This document shows positions 1 to 14,744 of a stretch of 16,779 nucleotides of DNA, piece after piece. How positions within the stretch are numbered: the first letter of the stretch is position 1; every line of letters starts with the position of its first letter. The DNA is taken from contig JACPSX010000052.1 of assembly GCA_016193065.1 (NCBI GenBank), forward strand, positions 1 to 16,779. The letters run 5' to 3'. Both the position numbers and the translations under genes were made by a program. The stretch is from Candidatus Tectimicrobiota bacterium. GTDB taxonomy: Bacteria > JACPSX01. The notes beneath the pieces were generated by a model, which worked only from the letters and a program-made list of their open reading frames with translations, was not told the DNA's origin and did no database searches.

Positions 1-930
1 ACCCAGGTGCAGGCGACGCAGACGGCGGTGGCGGCGGCTACTGCTGCGACTGCGGGGAATGCGCAGGCGGCCCAGTTTGCCACGCAGCAGGCCCAGCAAG
101 CGGCGACTCTGGCCACGCAGTCCACGCAGTCGGTGGCGGCGGGCGTGCAGGCAGTGGCCCAGACCCAGGCGACCAATCCTCAGGCGGCGGTGGCGGCGGC
201 GCAGGCGACCCAGCAGGCGACTCAGGCGACGCAGATGGCGGTGGGTGTGGTCAGCAACGTTGCCAATACGGCGGTGACGACTTCGTTGGCTCAGGCTCAA
301 CAAGGGGTGGCCCAATCGCAGGCGGCGGTGGCGGCGGCGCAGGTGGCGCAGCAGGCGGCGGCGCAGGTGAGCACGTTGGCGCAAGCGGCAGTGGTGGCGG
401 CGCAGAGTGCTTCGCAGGCGACGGGGGCGGCGGCCCAGCAGGCGGCGGCTCAGATAGTGCAAGCGGTTCAACAGGCGGCGGAGACCCAGGTGCAGGCGAC
501 GCAGGCGGCAGTGGCGGCGGCTACGGCGGCGGCGGCGGGAAATGTGCAGGCGGCGCAGTTTGCCACGCAGCAGGCCCAGCAGGCGGCGACTCTGTCCACG
601 CAGTCCTCACAGTCGGTGGCGGCGGGCGTGCAGGCAGCGGCCAGGGCTGAGGCGGCCAATCCGCAAGCGGCCCAGGCAGCGGCGCAGGCGGCCCAGAGTG
701 CGACTCAGGCAGCGCAGACAGCGGTGGGTGCAGTCAGCAATGTGGTCAACACGGCGGTGACGGCATCGGTGGCGCAAGCTCAGCAAGGGGTGGCCCAGTC
801 GCAGGCGGCGGTGGCGACGGCGCAGCAAGCCACCCAGGCGGCCTCCCAGACGGCGACTGCAGCGGCCCAGGGGAACGTGGCGCGGGCGTTGCAAGGGGCA
901 CAGCAGACACAGACACTGTCTACGCAGGTA
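1..930 (+). repeat. In-frame tandem repeat, 483-bp unit
   Basis: Base 1 onward matches base 484 onward, giving a period of 483 bp (161 codons). Copy 1 is 1-483 and is already cut by the window edge at an equivalent position, so further copies upstream are likely. Copy 2 (484 to about 840) loses similarity early. It is followed by a decayed third start near 850-930, where the T-A-A-A-Q-G-N-V and T-L-S-T-Q signatures return. 161 equals 23 heptads, so an uninterrupted helical register across units is possible. Differences between copies are scattered and mostly conservative. Confidence 0.85.
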
Positions 931-1848
931 CAGACGCAGACGGCGGCGCAGACTCCCACGGCTCCGGCACCTCCGACCCAGGCCGCAGCCCCGCCGCCGG
1001 CGGCAGCCCCGGTCTTTTCCGGGTTTACGCCCCCATCCCCATCGGTCGGGGGAGGAACAGTCACGACGACTACGACCGCCGCCGCCACAACGCCCAGCGC
1101 CTATCCGAGACCGGCGCTCGGGAGTCTTCTTACAAACTCAACGGCAACGGGAGTCCATGGACTCTCCAATGATGGTTCCGAGCTGGTGGTTTTTGACGGA
1201 TTCGCGTTTCCGTACTTCGTTGAAACGTACCCCCACGTTTACGTGAACGCCAATGGGAACCTCACGTTTGCGGGAGGCGACGACGATCATTCGGGCGATT
1301 TGCTGAGTCGAGTCGCGAATTCCTGGGTGCGAATCGTGCCCCTGTACGCAGATTTCAATATCCAGGGCAATACGAATCCGAATAGTTCTCTCGGAACGAT
1401 TCATACGGCTCAGAGGACTTCGAGCTTTTCAGTGACGTGGAAAAACGTGAACTCTCACAATGTTCCCGGAAACCAGGATACCACCTTTCGGATCACGCTA
1501 TTCAGTACGGGCGCCATTGAAATGAGCTACCAGACAATTGCACCAAAAGTCCAGGGAAGCACTCGAGACAACGTCTTTGTCGCTCTGATTCCCGGGGGTG
1601 GTCTTGAAACGGACATCCTGAGCGTGATCCTGAGTGCCGGAGGAGGCGGCAGCGCAGGCAGGCAGGTGATCAGCCAGATCTTCACTCAGAATAATGGCGG
1701 AAACATCAGCACAGATCTGGAAGGGAAAAATCTGCTCTTTGTGCCGAATGCCTCGGGGGGCTTTGACCTGATCGTGGCGCCTTTGACTGAAACAGATCCA
1801 TCGGGAATTATCCCGGGTCCGCCGGAGATCGCGAGTCCTTCGATCTAG
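1..1848 (+). CDS. Ala/Gln-rich tandem-repeat protein with nidogen-like C-terminal domain (5' partial)
   Basis: The frame is open from base 1 and ends at TAG 1846-1848, so the start lies outside the window; 615 residues are visible. The GTG at base 7 is not a start, because the same Thr-Gln-Val-Gln-Ala context recurs inside the second repeat. Residues 1 to about 310 are made almost only of Ala, Gln, Thr, Val and Ser with hardly any charge, as 161-residue repeats likely to be helical. A Pro/Thr/Ala linker (about 315-375) leads to a beta-rich domain (about 385-535). That domain has an N-G-N-L-T-F stretch, a V-P-L-Y-A-D-F segment, S-V-T-W-K-N-V, then T-F-R-I-T-L-F with G-A-I-E-M-S-Y, which is the order seen in nidogen-like (NIDO) domains. 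No membrane or sorting signal is visible at the C-terminus. The role is unknown; a secreted or surface fibre is an inference. Confidence 0.8.
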   Translation, partial: TQVQATQTAVAAATAATAGNAQAAQFATQQAQQAATLATQSTQSVAAGVQAVAQTQATNPQAAVAAAQATQQATQATQMAVGVVSNVANTAVTTSLAQAQQGVAQSQAAVAAAQVAQQAAAQVSTLAQAAVVAAQSASQATGAAAQQAAAQIVQAVQQAAETQVQATQAAVAAATAAAAGNVQAAQFATQQAQQAATLSTQSSQSVAAGVQAAARAEAANPQAAQAAAQAAQSATQAAQTAVGAVSNVVNTAVTASVAQAQQGVAQSQAAVATAQQATQAASQTATAAAQGNVARALQGAQQTQTLSTQVQTQTAAQTPTAPAPPTQAAAPPPAAAPVFSGFTPPSPSVGGGTVTTTTTAAATTPSAYPRPALGSLLTNSTATGVHGLSNDGSELVVFDGFAFPYFVETYPHVYVNANGNLTFAGGDDDHSGDLLSRVANSWVRIVPLYADFNIQGNTNPNSSLGTIHTAQRTSSFSVTWKNVNSHNVPGNQDTTFRITLFSTGAIEMSYQTIAPKVQGSTRDNVFVALIPGGGLETDILSVILSAGGGGSAGRQVISQIFTQNNGGNISTDLEGKNLLFVPNASGGFDLIVAPLTETDPSGIIPGPPEIASPSI

Positions 1849-2432: not shown

Positions 2433-6974
<4,542 letters not shown>

Positions 6975-7709: not shown

Positions 7710-7790
7710 CTTCAAGCACTCAGCATTCAGCTATCAGCCCCGAAAATCTCACCGCACCTCGGACAACAGAAGGTTTCCCATATCCTCCCA

Positions 7791-7980
7791 AGGGGTAGCC
7801 CCCGCCGGCGACCTTCTATTGCTCCTGCTGAAAGGGACCGGGTGTGCCCCGAACGGGCGACTGAAAGTTTTGCAGGCGTCGTCGCCGGAAAGCTTGAATC
7901 TCCTCGCATGCGAAAGAGAACCGACCCTCAATTGCGCTCGTGCGCAAAAGTTTCCTGGAGCCCCAAGGGGCACCCCGGTC
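7791..7980 (+). repeat. Intergenic repeat element A
   Basis: The block 7791-7878 matches the reverse complement of 9389-9476 at 79 of 88 positions, with 33 identical bases at 7830-7862. The rest, to about 7980, resembles the right half of the module at 9215-9327 and 13864-13980. This includes the GGGGCACCCC arm (7967-7976), which can pair with GGGGTAGCCCC at 7792-7802. The element fills the gap between the convergent lrp and aminopeptidase genes and ends a few bases from the latter's stop. No convincing ORF and no terminal repeats were seen. Confidence 0.8.
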
Positions 7981-7992
7981 TCCTTTTGGAAT

Positions 7993-9210: not shown

Positions 9211-9773
9211 AAGTCCTCGGGGTGCCCCCTTGGGCTCACGAAGCGCTTGCGACGTGAGTTGCGTCGGCCGGATTGAGAGTTCTCTTCCTCGCAACCGCTT
9301 AGATCGCCTACGGGGGCAACCCCTCGGACAGGATGGGGAAGCTTTCCATTGTCCAATGTGCAAGATGCTTGATGGCTAGGAGGGGCGGCGCCTGCAAAAC
9401 TTTAAGTCGCCCGTTCGGGGCACACCCGGTCCCTTTCTACAAAAGCAATATAAGGTTGCCCGCGGGGGCTACCCCCTCAGGTAGAGACGACCGAAGAGGC
9501 TGCCCGATCCGCCTTGAGCGTAACTGCCGGGAGCAACGGCACCCAAAGGGTACCCGACCGGGAGCGGCCAGGGATGGGAAACCGCGCAGCCAGAACGCGC
9601 TTTCAGATAGCTGGAAACATATCGTGGCGGTAGGGGAGGGTTCCGGGTACCCGTCCTGGGTGTGGGTGCCCCGGGTCGTTGCGGAACACCCGCGAAGCGC
9701 GGGTACCCGGAAGCGAAGGGGGGGAGGGCAGTCCTCACTACAGGAGCACATGCAGAAACTGGGGGTGGGCAAG
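9211..9773 (-). repeat. Intergenic repeat element B (composite)
   Basis: Read on the - strand, B follows the order of element C (13611-13980). It has an end block CTTGCCCACCCCCAGTTT (9773-9756), a middle block shared with 13678-13840 (about 9690-9490), and an arm module shared with 13864-13980 (9327-9215). Between the last two it carries an extra block, 9389-9476, shared with element A. B is thus C-like with an A-type module added. Together with its flanks it occupies most of the 720-bp gap 9124-9843, in which I see no credible gene. The end expected near 9200 lacks a recognisable terminal repeat, so this copy may be decayed or truncated. Confidence 0.8.
9643..9710. repeat. Nested palindromes within element B
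   Basis: CCGGGTACCCG (9643-9653) and CGGGTACCCGG (9700-9710) are each nearly self-complementary and are also inverted copies of each other. Between them, next to the right copy, lies a perfect 6-bp hairpin, CCCGCG-AAG-CGCGGG (9689-9703). The rest of the loop is GC-rich. Alternative foldings are possible on either strand. This palindromic part is weaker in element C. Confidence 0.7.
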
Positions 9774-10598: not shown

Positions 10599-10953
10599 CC
10601 ACGGGTTGTTCTTTGAGTTTCACGAGCTCTTGGAGGAGTCCTGGTCCCGAGCTCAGGAGCCGGAAAAGCAGTTCCTGCAAGCGCTCATCCAGATCGCCGT
10701 GGGGTTTTACCGGCTGCAGGCGCGCAAGGTGCGGGGATGCCTGCAGCTTCTCCGCGAGGGGGAGGAAAAGGCGGGTCCCCTTGCCCCGGCTTGTCTGGGG
10801 CTGGAAGTGCGGGAATTTCTGGGTGGGATTGCCGCCTGCCGTTCGGCAATTGCCCGTCTGGGGGAGCGAGCCCCCGATGAATTTGATTGGGCCTCGATCC
10901 CGTTTATGAGGTCTGTCCACACTTCCCCGGGAATCGCCTCCCGGGATCGATAG
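10498..10953 (+). CDS. DUF309 domain protein
   Basis: The 151-residue product carries the DUF309 signature. It has G-L-F-N-H-G-L-F-F-E-F-H-E-L-L-E-E-S-W at 31-49, then F-L-Q-A-L-I-Q-I-A-V-G-F-Y-R-L-Q at 59-74, and a leucine-rich helix (C-L-Q-L-L-R-E-G-E-E). Family members are small all-helical proteins of unknown biochemical role. The ATG at 10498 is the first start after an in-frame stop at 10453-10455 but has no clear Shine-Dalgarno. It lies inside the preceding ORF, so translation may depend on coupling. The domain begins near residue 25, so a slightly later start is possible. The stop TAG overlaps the ribosome site of glcDE, which starts 12 bases later, a sign of a shared transcript. Confidence 0.85.
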   Translation: MKVRPLPPSRLKPREKIALTDLEKLLRIGAGLFNHGLFFEFHELLEESWSRAQEPEKQFLQALIQIAVGFYRLQARKVRGCLQLLREGEEKAGPLAPACLGLEVREFLGGIAACRSAIARLGERAPDEFDWASIPFMRSVHTSPGIASRDR

Positions 10954-10964
10954 AGGAAAGCCGT

Positions 10965-13610
10965 GTGATCTCCGATCCGGTGCGCCGCGAGCTGGAAAAA
11001 ATTCTAGCGCCTGAAGATGTTCTGACAGATCCGGAGGTTCTGGTGACCTATGCGGGTGACGCGGGCCTCGACCGGGGAATGCCGGATGCCGTGGTCTTCG
11101 TGCACACTGCCGCGGAAATTCAGGCCGTCGTACGCTGCGCGCTGAGGCATCGCATCCCCTTTCTGCCCAGGGCATCGGGGACCTCCCTGAGTGGAGGTCC
11201 GGTCCCATCCTGCGGGGGGATTCTTGTGGAATGCTCCCGGATGAGGACCATCTCCTTTGATTCAGGAAGTAAGAGAGCTTCCGTAGAACCCGGGGTCATT
11301 AACCTGGACCTGCAGAAGGCGCTGGCCTCCTCCGGTCTTTTTTTCCCTCCCGACCCTGCCAGCCAGAGGGCTTCCTGCCTGGGCGGAAACATTGCCGAGA
11401 ACGCGGGTGGGCCCCTGTGCTTCAAGTACGGGGTGACCGGTCATTACGTCCTGGGTCTTGAGGCGGTTCTTCCCGACGGCGGGATCGTGCAGACGGGAGG
11501 TCTCAGCAGCGACTACCCCGAATACGATTTCAGGGGGGTTTTGGTCGGATCGGAAGGGACCCTGGGTATCGTCACCCGGGCCTATCTGCGACTGGTCAAT
11601 GTTCCCGCCGCCGCGGCCACTCTCGTAGCCAGCTTTGACAGCCTGGAAGCGGCAGCCCAAGCCGTCTCTGCGATCATTGCGGCGGGCATCGTGCCCGCCG
11701 CCTTGGAGCTCATGGATCAAACCGTCATCCGCATGATCGAGGATTTTCTTCGCAGTGGGCTCCCGGTGGACGCCGCAGCGATTTTGATTGTAGAGGTCGA
11801 CGGGGCTGAGGAGAGCCTGGTCCCGCAGGGGGAGGAGATCCAGAGGGTCCTTGAGGCAAACGGAAGCCGGAATGTCCGTTGCGCCAGGACCGCCGAGGAG
11901 AGAGAACGGATCTGGTATGCCCGGCGCAGCGTGGCCGGCGCCATCGCCCGTCTTGCCCCGTATCATTACACCCAGGATGGGACCGTGCCGCGCTCCCGGC
12001 TCGCCGAGGTTCTCGTAAAGGTCGGGGACATCGGGCGCCGCTTCGGGCTCTCCATTGGGAATCTGGCCCATGCCGGAGACGGGAACCTCCACCCCCTGAT
12101 CCTCTTTGATCCCCAAGATGCGGAGGAGACCCGCCGGGTTCTGGAGGCCGGGATGGAGATCCTGAGGGAGTGCGTCCGGGCTGGAGGAGTGATCACGGGA
12201 GAGCACGGGGTGGGACTTGAGAAAAAAGAGGCGATGCACCTCATGTACACCCCGGCGGAGTTAAACGCGATGCGTGACCTGAAGAGGATCCTCGATCCCG
12301 AGGGGCTGTGTAATCCGGGCAAGATCTTTCCGGATACGGAATCGTTGCCCGAGCGGGAGGATGTGCAGCCGGCAGAAATTCCCAGGCCGGCTCAAGAGGA
12401 GGAAGTTGCCTCCTGTCTTTTGGAAGCGGCACGGAAGGAAACTCCCGTTTCCGTGGTGGGCGGCGGGACGAAGCACTTCCTGGGAAATGTCTGGAATGAA
12501 GGGACGGTCCGGCTGCTGTCCACGGCGTCCTTCTCAGGAGTCGTTGATTACGCCCCTGAGGATCTGGTGCTCACTGTGGGGGCGGGGACCCCGCTTTCTG
12601 AAATCCATCAGTTTCTGGAGGGGAGCCACCTTCAGTTGCCCTGGAGACACCCCTGGTCCCGGAGTACGGTGGGCGGTGTTCTTGCCTGCAACTGGAATCC
12701 TCCCGGCAGGCTCCGTATCGGGTCTTTAAAGGACCAGGTCTTAGGCCTGCGGGTTGTTCTTCCCCGGGGAGAGATCCTGCACTGCGGGGGCAGAGTGGTG
12801 AAGAACGTGGCGGGATATGACTTGACCAAGCTCTTTATCGGGGCTATGGGGACGCTGGGGGTGATCCTGCAGGCGACTTTGAAGCTCTCTCCCCGGCCCC
12901 AAGAAGAGGCAACGGTCGTCTTTTCGTTCCCTGGTTTGCCTGATGTGGCGGCTGCCGGGACGGCTCTCTTCGGGGATGCCCGGCTGAACCCCGATCTCCT
13001 GATGGCAGTGAGTACTGGAGGAGACCAGATTCTCGAAGAGACTCTGGGAGTCAGGGGCCACGTTCTCATCGTCTCTCTTCAGGGGAGGAAGGAAGAAGTC
13101 AGTGCGGGTCTTCGTAGATTGGAAGCGGAGAGATCAGGCTTGCGGCCGCTGGCCTTTTCCCCGGAGAAAGGGAGCGGAGTACACCTATGGGGATCGTTTG
13201 TGGAAACCGGTGTCCGTCAGGCCCTCGAGAATGGCACGGATTCCCTCTTTGTAAAAGGGGGTGTTCCCGGGCAAAGTCTTTTCTCCTTCCTGCAGGAGCT
13301 GGATCGGAAGGTCAGCGAATGCGGAGGGGTCCTTGCTTGTTGCGTGGAAATTGGCTTTGGTGTGTTTTATGCTTTTTTGAAATTTTCCGGCGCCGACCCG
13401 AAGGATCTCTCGGCGCTGTCCCGCGCCATGTCCCAGCGGGTTTCGGAACTGGGGGGCTATTGGATCCTGGCGGCGGCCTCCGATCAGGTCAAAGCCGGCC
13501 TTGATATCTGGGGGGAGACGAGGCCTGCTTTCTCACTGATGAAGGCTTTGAAAAGCACCTGGGATCCGAGCCACATCCTCAATCGCGGCCGGTTTGCCGG
13601 TTTCATCTGA
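10965..13610 (+). CDS. glcDE: Glycolate oxidase, fused GlcD-GlcE subunits
   Basis: The enzyme oxidises glycolate (or a related 2-hydroxyacid) to glyoxylate, passing electrons through FAD and normally an Fe-S subunit, GlcF. The 881-residue protein joins two FAD-binding subunits that are separate in E. coli. Residues 1-457 are GlcD: P-F-L-P-R-A-S-G-T-S-L-S-G-G (65-78), G-G-N-I-A-E-N-A-G-G (140-149), V-G-S-E-G-T-L-G-I-V-T (194-204), H-A-G-D-G-N-L-H (369-376) and T-G-E-H-G-V-G (411-417). Residues about 475-881 are GlcE: V-V-G-G-G-T-K (497-503), S-T-V-G-G-V-L-A (567-574), G-R-V-V-K-N-V-A-G-Y-D-L-T-K-L (609-623) and M-G-T-L-G-V (628-633). GTG 10965 has AGAGGAAAG just upstream; the longer frame from TTG 10887 would overlap DUF309. 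No frameshift or internal stop marks the junction. No glcF lies nearby. The TTC-ATC-TGA end is duplicated at 14010-14018 by the adjacent element. Confidence 0.93.
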   Translation: MISDPVRRELEKILAPEDVLTDPEVLVTYAGDAGLDRGMPDAVVFVHTAAEIQAVVRCALRHRIPFLPRASGTSLSGGPVPSCGGILVECSRMRTISFDSGSKRASVEPGVINLDLQKALASSGLFFPPDPASQRASCLGGNIAENAGGPLCFKYGVTGHYVLGLEAVLPDGGIVQTGGLSSDYPEYDFRGVLVGSEGTLGIVTRAYLRLVNVPAAAATLVASFDSLEAAAQAVSAIIAAGIVPAALELMDQTVIRMIEDFLRSGLPVDAAAILIVEVDGAEESLVPQGEEIQRVLEANGSRNVRCARTAEERERIWYARRSVAGAIARLAPYHYTQDGTVPRSRLAEVLVKVGDIGRRFGLSIGNLAHAGDGNLHPLILFDPQDAEETRRVLEAGMEILRECVRAGGVITGEHGVGLEKKEAMHLMYTPAELNAMRDLKRILDPEGLCNPGKIFPDTESLPEREDVQPAEIPRPAQEEEVASCLLEAARKETPVSVVGGGTKHFLGNVWNEGTVRLLSTASFSGVVDYAPEDLVLTVGAGTPLSEIHQFLEGSHLQLPWRHPWSRSTVGGVLACNWNPPGRLRIGSLKDQVLGLRVVLPRGEILHCGGRVVKNVAGYDLTKLFIGAMGTLGVILQATLKLSPRPQEEATVVFSFPGLPDVAAAGTALFGDARLNPDLLMAVSTGGDQILEETLGVRGHVLIVSLQGRKEEVSAGLRRLEAERSGLRPLAFSPEKGSGVHLWGSFVETGVRQALENGTDSLFVKGGVPGQSLFSFLQELDRKVSECGGVLACCVEIGFGVFYAFLKFSGADPKDLSALSRAMSQRVSELGGYWILAAASDQVKAGLDIWGETRPAFSLMKALKSTWDPSHILNRGRFAGFI
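13602..13610 (+). repeat. 9-bp direct repeat, left copy (target-site duplication)
   Basis: TTCATCTGA is the last Phe-Ile pair and stop of glcDE. The identical 9 bases recur at 14010-14018, immediately outside the other end of element C. Confidence 0.8.
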
Positions 13611-14009
13611 CTTGCCCACTCCCAGTTTTTGGAGCTCCATAGCCGGGGGGACTGCCTCCCGCCCCTCGCTTCACGCCTCCCGTAGCGACCCTTGTCGGGG
13701 CGCCCAGGGTGGGAGCCCTCCGCTACCGCCACGATAAGTGTTCAGCTATCTGCAAGCGCGTCCAGGCTGCGCGGTTTCCCATCCCTGGCCGCTCCCGTTG
13801 GGTCCCCGCTGCTCCCGGCAGTTTCGCTCAGGGCGGGAAGGTCAGTCCCCTTTGGGCTCTTTCTCCGAGGGAGTTGCCCCCGCAGGCGACCTAAGAGGTT
13901 TCGGGTCAGAAGAGACTCGATCCAGCTGACAAATCTACCGCCGAAAGCTCTTCGGGAGCCCAAGGGGGCACTCCCGAGGATGCCGAAGAGAAAGTGGGGG
14001 TGGGCAAGC
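13611..14009 (+). mobile_element. Element C, MITE-like non-autonomous insertion
   Basis: The left end CTTGCCCACTCCCAGTTTTT (13611-13630) and the right end 13990-14008, read in reverse as CTTGCCCACCCCCACTTTC, are imperfect terminal inverted repeats of about 19 bp. Directly outside lie identical 9-bp repeats, TTCATCTGA. The element is about 400 bp, has no transposase and no credible ORF, and shares its interior with element B. The block at 13678-13735 (GTAGCGACCC to CTACCGCC) resembles palindromic intergenic repeats common in environmental genomes, from memory. The interior module 13864-13980 has the paired-arm structure given separately. Together this fits a MITE moved by a transposase encoded elsewhere. 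It explains the whole gap between glcDE and the next gene. Confidence 0.8.
13864..13980 (+). other. Paired-arm module (possible RNA or cruciform stem) in element C
   Basis: GGGAGTTGCCCCC (13869-13881) pairs with GGGGGCACTCCC (13964-13975): 6 bp, one bulged T, then 6 bp. The stem extends outward through a GA/GA internal loop to TCC-GGA and inward through a 3x3 loop to GGC-GCC. The equivalent arms in B (9312-9323 and 9219-9229) pair the same way with one base pair fewer. Confidence 0.6.
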
Positions 14010-14018
14010 TTCATCTGA
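14010..14018 (+). repeat. 9-bp direct repeat, right copy (target-site duplication)
   Basis: TTCATCTGA, identical to 13602-13610, follows the right terminal repeat of element C. Removing 13611-14018 would restore a glcDE stop lying only about 3 bp before the TTGACA at 14022. Confidence 0.8.
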
Positions 14019-14021
14019 GCA

Positions 14022-14050
14022 TTGACATGAGAGTTGAATTCATTTACTTT
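14022..14050 (+). promoter_or_regulatory. Candidate promoter for the Lon-N-domain gene
   Basis: A perfect TTGACA (14022-14027), a 17-bp spacer and TACTTT (14045-14050; weak, but T1, A2 and T6 are kept). The start of transcription would be near 14057. That makes the in-frame TTG at 14034 impossible as a start and the ATG at 14058 leaderless. Confidence 0.4.
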
Positions 14051-14090
14051 GCAGCCTATGGGAGACCAGGGGATAGGAGACCGCGGTGAA

Positions 14091-14744
14091 GTGAAATGGA
14101 TCCCCCAAGTGATTCCTATTTTCCCCTTGCCCGATGTGGTGTTTTTCCCCGAGACGTTTCTCCCCCTCCACATCTTTGAGCCCCGCTACCGGCAGATGGT
14201 TCAAGACTGCCTTGAGGACCGGCCTTTTATCGGCATGGCGCTCCTGCGTGAGGGCTGGGAGCCGAACTATTACGGAGCCCCTCCTGTCTATCCCCTGGGC
14301 TGCGTGGGGGAAATCATTCACTCCGAGAAGCTATCCGACGGGCGCTACAACATTGTCCTGCGTGGTCTGAAGAAGTATGAAATCCTGGAAGAACTCTTTC
14401 ATCGCAGCTATCGCCAGGCCTTGGTGGGTTTCCGCGACCTCCCGGAGGAAGAAGCCTCCCTCCCGGAGTCCGTTCGCGAGGAACTGGAATCCCTGATGCG
14501 GCGGTATTCCAGACTCATCGATCAAGAAATAGCCGTTGACAACCTTCTTGCCATGGGCCTAGAATCCACTGCCTTGTTAAATACTCTCTCCTCCGTGCTC
14601 CCTCTCCCTCCAGGGGAAAAGTACTTTCTTCTGGAGTCCGAGAATCCTTCCCAGCATTGCGGAAGGCTGCTGGATCTTTTGCGCTTCAACATTATTGCGC
14701 TTCAGGGTGGAAGGGGTCCCAGCGGCCCCCCTCTTGTGCATTAA
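14091..14744 (+). CDS. Lon N-terminal (substrate-binding) domain protein, stand-alone
   Basis: The 217-residue product matches the stand-alone LonSB family (N-terminal domain of Lon protease) without ATPase or protease parts. It shows I-P-I-F-P-L-P-D-V-V-F-F-P at about 8-20, the family hallmark L-P-L-H-I-F-E-P-R-Y-R-Q-M at 24-36, and G-C-V-G-E-I-I-H near 81, followed by Y-N-I-V-L-R-G. A C-terminal helical bundle ends in L-L-D-L-L-R-F-N. Its function is not established; binding of unfolded or specific protein segments is inferred from Lon. GTG 14091 is chosen because AGGAGA lies 10 nt upstream and homologues usually begin just before the I-P-L-F-P-L motif. ATG 14058 and TTG 14034 are in-frame alternatives. 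The next gene follows after 90 bp on the same strand and may be co-transcribed. Confidence 0.9.
   Translation: MKWIPQVIPIFPLPDVVFFPETFLPLHIFEPRYRQMVQDCLEDRPFIGMALLREGWEPNYYGAPPVYPLGCVGEIIHSEKLSDGRYNIVLRGLKKYEILEELFHRSYRQALVGFRDLPEEEASLPESVREELESLMRRYSRLIDQEIAVDNLLAMGLESTALLNTLSSVLPLPPGEKYFLLESENPSQHCGRLLDLLRFNIIALQGGRGPSGPPLVH

Follow-up and report, generated by a model that had tools for sequence, protein, structure and literature searches.

What is the G+C-rich stretch of 398 bp that separates two genes, and how did it come to begin exactly at a stop codon? The question arises at positions 13611-14008 of the window, i.e., the whole stretch of 16,779 nucleotides analysed here, where this segment has 18-bp terminal inverted repeats at its ends and a direct repeat on either side. 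As the earlier note had described, TTCATCTGA is present twice, at 13602-13610 and 14010-14018, and lies just outside a left terminal repeat (13611-13628, + strand, CTTGCCCACTCCCAGTTT) and a right terminal repeat (13991-14008, - strand, CTTGCCCACCCCCACTTT on that strand and AAAGTGGGGGTGGGCAAG as written), which are complementary at 16 of their 18 positions. The consensus of the terminal repeat is CTTGCCCAC[C/T]CCCA[G/C]TTT. The upstream gene (10887-13610, + strand) encodes an intact, fused glycolate-oxidase-like FAD protein (glcDE-like) with FAD_binding_4 and FAD-oxidase_C domains. Its TGA stop codon lies within the left repeat, and the protein is left unchanged, as had been claimed. The downstream gene (14034-14744, + strand, with its start at 14034 or slightly later) encodes a LON substrate-binding domain protein. 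When the flanks of the element are joined, the glcDE TGA is followed by the LON-domain ORF and nothing is lost. We infer that the two genes were adjacent before an insertion that lengthened their gap by 408 bp; the empty-site form of this gap would read a single TTCATCTGA followed by GCATTGACA.

The segment itself has no family-matching ORF. The two ORFs that run over the 398 bp gave no match in a Pfam search, in agreement with the observation that no transposase lies inside the element, and the element matched nothing in Rfam. It is strongly self-complementary, and its + strand is predicted to fold as RNA well above shuffled sequences (z -7.3). A scan for promoters and terminators in and around the element returned no such site, and a promoter role for the TTGACA at 14022 is thus not supported by that scan.

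The duplication recognised in the earlier note stands, while its length of 9 bp does not: TTTCATCTGA at 13601-13610, whose last three positions form the stop codon of glcDE, and CTTCATCTGA at 14009-14018 are identical at 9 of 10 positions and are best read as a 10-bp target duplication with one mismatch, because other copies of the element have 10-bp duplications. These are exact around a 434-bp copy (ATTTCTCGGT) and a 306-bp copy (CGATCCGTCC), and carry one mismatch around the 301-, 398-, 451-, 452- and 66-bp copies; weaker flank matches are seen for a 415-bp copy (10/11) and a 237-bp copy (7/10). Flank matching was assessed for duplication lengths t = 7-12, scoring at least t-2 matches and retaining all end pairs, poor ones included. 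At t = 10, at least 8 of 10 positions match in 6 of 20 pairs from the same genome, against 0.5% at this threshold when flanks are swapped between elements; no pair scores at t = 7, 8, 9 or 12, and a single one (1/17) does so at t = 11. In other genomes carrying the same ends, 12 of 49 pairs have at least 8/10 matches at t = 10, and no other length gives more than 2 such pairs; swapped flanks reach 0.5-0.6% over the two sets. The duplication thus has the constant length expected around a MITE, with a peak at 10 bp only.

The host genome is represented by a 2.9-Mb MAG of 294 contigs that is 86% complete. The 398-bp element has 43 DNA matches in it, mostly at 72-90% identity, and is clearly not a chance feature. 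Parts of the element occur at about 70 loci, most with the same ends where ends are still visible, and the end pattern with at most two mismatches is found at 93 sites, compared with 29 for a reversed control pattern. Across 52 ends backed by family sequence, conservation rises sharply at the C of CTTGCCC (position 1) and extends to about position 18, which fixes the start of the element; the sequence outside is at background level, except that position -1 is C or G in 41 of the 52. Complete members measure 66, 237, 301, 306, 398, 415, 434, 451 and 452 bp, and the search that the earlier note had proposed for further copies with ends about 400 bp apart was therefore answered within this genome by those of 398 to 452 bp. 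The 66-bp member (3018-3083 of locus L037), which has a 10-bp duplication (9/10), consists of barely more than the two ends and may be close to the smallest element on which the transposase can act. Altogether, the 398-bp element is short (MITEs being about 50-500 bp), lacks a transposase, has terminal inverted repeats and belongs to a family of many dispersed copies.

A mobile family had been proposed to be active in this genome. The family is borne out by its dispersal and modular build, but its activity is not, given a divergence of 10-25% between most copies and a mismatch in many of the duplications; at this level of divergence, the family may be extinct in its own genome. About 19 contig ends (a manual count) fall inside family members, above the share expected from the fraction of the genome that they occupy, which suggests that some copies are near-identical and break the assembly.

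The interior of the members follows the order end-A-(C)-B-end across the roughly 70 loci, and modules A, C and B all contain hairpins. In the 398-bp element, module A, left terminal repeat included, spans 13611-13862 (+ strand) and module B 13863-13983 (+ strand), the latter a hairpin that measures about 117-121 bp and has its arms near 13875-13904 and 13941-13970. Other members lack C, lack both A and C, or are reduced to nearly the ends alone. The module junctions share a recurrent motif close to GGGGTTGCCCCCG.AGGCGACCT, and the copies with fewer modules would be internal deletions from an A-C-B ancestor, presumably by deletion between copies of this junction motif. A further, longer member lies elsewhere in the window on the - strand (9214-9773), flanked by the M24 peptidase gene and by a SnoaL-like gene; its module A covers about 9453-9773, module C about 9386-9475 and module B 9214-9328. 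One of its ends is intact, the terminal repeat at 9756-9773 being the exact consensus; the opposite terminal repeat is decayed, and the member shows no duplication. A lone module C (7783-7986, + strand), with no recognisable terminal repeat, lies just beyond the 3′ end of this peptidase gene, with an Lrp/AsnC gene as its other neighbour, and is probably the remnant of a family member. The left edge of the window (1-1848) is occupied by a long, Ala/Gln-rich repetitive ORF.

When the flanks of 23 paired elements were joined by script, most elements were found to lie between ORFs, and the insertion at the glcDE stop codon is one of the few that touch an ORF boundary. This landing is read as tolerated rather than targeted, and it needs no targeting. 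The intergenic position of most copies, together with the stable fold, could also be taken to mean that the hairpin-rich insert has been retained for use between glcDE and the LON-domain gene, in transcript stability, attenuation or processing. Such a role is compatible with a MITE, but we consider it improbable: neither a promoter- or terminator-like site in or around the element nor an Rfam counterpart was found, and the presence of copies in many unrelated gaps is what mere removal of insertions from genes would leave.

The same ends are found well beyond this genome. Among about 85,000 genomes, 45 stretches contain the exact 18-mer, compared with a chance expectation of about 7 in 257 Gb, as estimated from 4^18. 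Paired ends with a 10-bp duplication are present in the deltaproteobacterial MAGs AlinenSedimentsD2 bin-1424, LacPavin SED5 and RBG_13_61_14, as well as in Troglogloeales and Acidobacteria MAGs. The entries G039 and G064 have identical coordinates and are apparently one genome, RBG_13_61_14, to which locus L031 also belongs. Among the genomes compared, the interiors are unrelated and the ends alone are common to them; in the Troglogloeales MAG, for instance, the ends (L101, 3425-3616) enclose a GTCATTTCGA...GAGAAATC-type repeat unrelated to the modules of the window. Lone 18-mer matches, such as those in Phaeovibrio, Spirulina, Comamonadaceae and Chloroflexi, lack a good partner end and are probably due to chance. 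At locus L017, two ends lie 9 bp apart; two insertions sharing one target were considered there and rejected, as no second flank matched. Viral contigs scanned with the 18-bp end gave no match, nor did plasmids searched with the 398-bp element.

A full transposon with these ends, which the earlier note had suggested looking for, exists in the MAG of Acidobacteria bacterium 37-71-11. There, both ends lie 1861 bp apart (L102, 925-2785) around an intact insertion sequence flanked by a perfect 10-bp target duplication, GTCCGCGCCC. Its first ORF, upstream of the transposase, encodes a DUF6788 protein (PF20586, E 1e-6), and the second a protein of 454 aa with a DDE_Tnp_1 domain (PF01609, E 5e-11). 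The latter has a complete YREK signature, Y(2)R(3)E(6)K at residues 325-339 (YRERMQVEQGFRDLK at 325), and a putative catalytic triad D160-D226-E332, i.e., D(65)D(105)E. Its best NCBIfam model is NF033591 (IS4; E 2e-35), with 122.5 bits against a cut-off of 152, and because this score is below the cut-off, the element is named IS4-like rather than an IS4 member. By these sequence features, the transposase appears akin to those of IS4; its profile matched no PDB sequence.

This two-ORF layout, whole or partial, recurs in about six further MAGs, where most copies are broken or run off the contig, and the Acidobacteria copy is the only one seen whole. A protein search with its transposase found relatives in 7 of 25 genomes, the source genome counted; these genomes had been picked for the end sequence, and the association between end and transposase is partly due to that selection. 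Among loci reached by the transposase protein alone, three of four (L134, L136 and L137) carry the end next to the transposase gene. DUF6788 followed by the transposase behind the same end is found at L104/L133, L113/L132, L077/L135 and L105, and as fragments at L136, while at L075/L139 a 660-bp pair of ends surrounds DUF6788 with most of the transposase missing. No such transposase was detected in the assembly of the window's own genome by protein, profile, PF01609 or PF20586 search, nor in most of the other MITE-bearing genomes examined. The parent element may have been lost from the own genome, unassembled or too diverged.

The IS4 family is characterised by the YREK motif, Y(2)R(3)E(6)K, by a D(60-110)D(100-150)E triad, by single-ORF transposases and by target duplications of about 10 bp, ranging from 7 to 13 bp by subgroup (PMC2266710). 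The Acidobacteria element has the spacing of both the DDE and YREK signatures, a CT-starting terminal repeat and a duplication of about one helix turn. It departs from the family in its extra upstream ORF and in falling short of the curated IS4 model. Among the seven IS4 subgroups, CT-type ends are found only in IS10 and IS50, which duplicate 8-9 bp (PMC2266710), and no listed subgroup combines a CTTGCCCACCCCCAGTTT end and a duplication of 10 bp. The closest annotated transposase in the plasmid collection, with about 30% identity over about 60% of the length, is that of ISTth2, an IS4-like element of Thermus thermophilus plasmids. ISTth2 also has a CT-type end, but the sequence of this end differs (CTGAGTTCTCATCACTTT), the element measures about 1.2 kb, and it has no DUF6788, since its upstream ORF has no Pfam match. 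The two-ORF partner appears to be undescribed in the open literature, ISfinder being outside the scope of that search.

Altogether, these findings lead to a model in which 13611-14008 is very probably a non-autonomous MITE with nothing but its ends in common with its parent and was mobilised by an IS4-like, two-ORF transposase. The transposase of the DUF6788 and DDE insertion sequence would recognise the 18-bp CTTGCCCACCCCCAGTTT ends, and the element would probably insert by cut-and-paste, by analogy with IS4-family elements; staggered cuts in the target would leave the 10-bp duplication. Here, the target would have held the last bases of glcDE, and the duplication would have kept the stop codon and left the protein whole. 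Because such a transposase was not found in the own assembly, we infer that an enzyme of this type mobilised the copies of this genome in trans, and the cut-and-paste chemistry is likewise presumed. The failure to find the transposase there, the imperfect duplication in the window (9/10) and the divergence of most copies count against this model.

One could instead suppose that the MITE was moved by a different, resident transposase, from another IS family with similar ends and unrelated to the DUF6788-bearing, IS4-like element. The own assembly, in which no IS4-like transposase of the right kind was found, does contain others. On contig C242 (L131, 1981-3689 and 367-1779), a DUF6788 ORF lies by a different transposase-like ORF, with an IS1380-like DDE transposase adjoining. 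This DUF6788 gene was considered as the parent and rejected, as the neighbouring transposases are of other kinds and the ends do not match; DUF6788 ORFs seem to occur beside transposases of more than one kind. We regard mobilisation by such a resident enzyme as unlikely, given that the C242 transposases have no such ends in the stretch read and that both the 18-bp terminal repeats and the 10-bp duplication length are common to the MITE and the IS4-like element.

The Chunjie MITE of the deltaproteobacterium Geobacter uraniireducens is described as 178-235 bp long with many partial copies, and with one copy in an operon (PMC10969869); as far as that description goes, it resembles the present family in being a MITE of variable length with terminal and direct repeats. 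No Geobacter record appeared in the 18-mer scan of the genome collection. QMITE1 and QMITE2 of Coxiella burnetii are presented as hairpin-forming MITEs of about 190-400 bp whose truncated copies are REP-like (PMC5896051). QMITE2 differs in its duplications of 7-9 bp, its ends being compared by description only, and a cross-phylum partner with the same ends does not figure in the part of the account consulted for either element (PMC5896051). That the present copies are themselves REP/BIME-like hairpin repeats, spread by copying or recombination with no end-recognising transposase, would suit their strong inner hairpins and the occurrence of modules B and C without clear ends, including 7783-7986 of the window, but it is refuted for complete copies by the peak of the duplications at exactly 10 bp, sits badly with the sharp element boundaries, does not account for genomes that have ends and not interiors in common, and is highly improbable overall, the end-less copies being explained by age-related loss of ends, as in other MITEs (PMC10969869).

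As a MITE, the element is ordinary; as a family, it seems new and apparently undescribed, again on a search of the open literature. We put at about an even chance the broader proposal that the combination of CTTGCCCACCCCCAGTTT ends and a 10-bp duplication is the hallmark of an IS4-related lineage, undescribed so far, in which DUF6788 is an accessory protein. This lineage would be present in several phyla and would mobilise in trans interiors that are unrelated between genomes, and a separate MITE family would have arisen in each host out of unrelated hairpin sequence. The analysis gives a name to mobile elements of uncultured bacteria that might otherwise have passed for intergenic repeats without explanation, defines their exact ends and the length of their target duplication, and links them to a candidate for the autonomous element. 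The presence of a DUF6788 ORF within an IS4-like element offers a testable setting for a family of unknown function, and the unrelated interiors carried between the same ends across phyla form a natural series on the minimal sequence for an IS4-type transposase.
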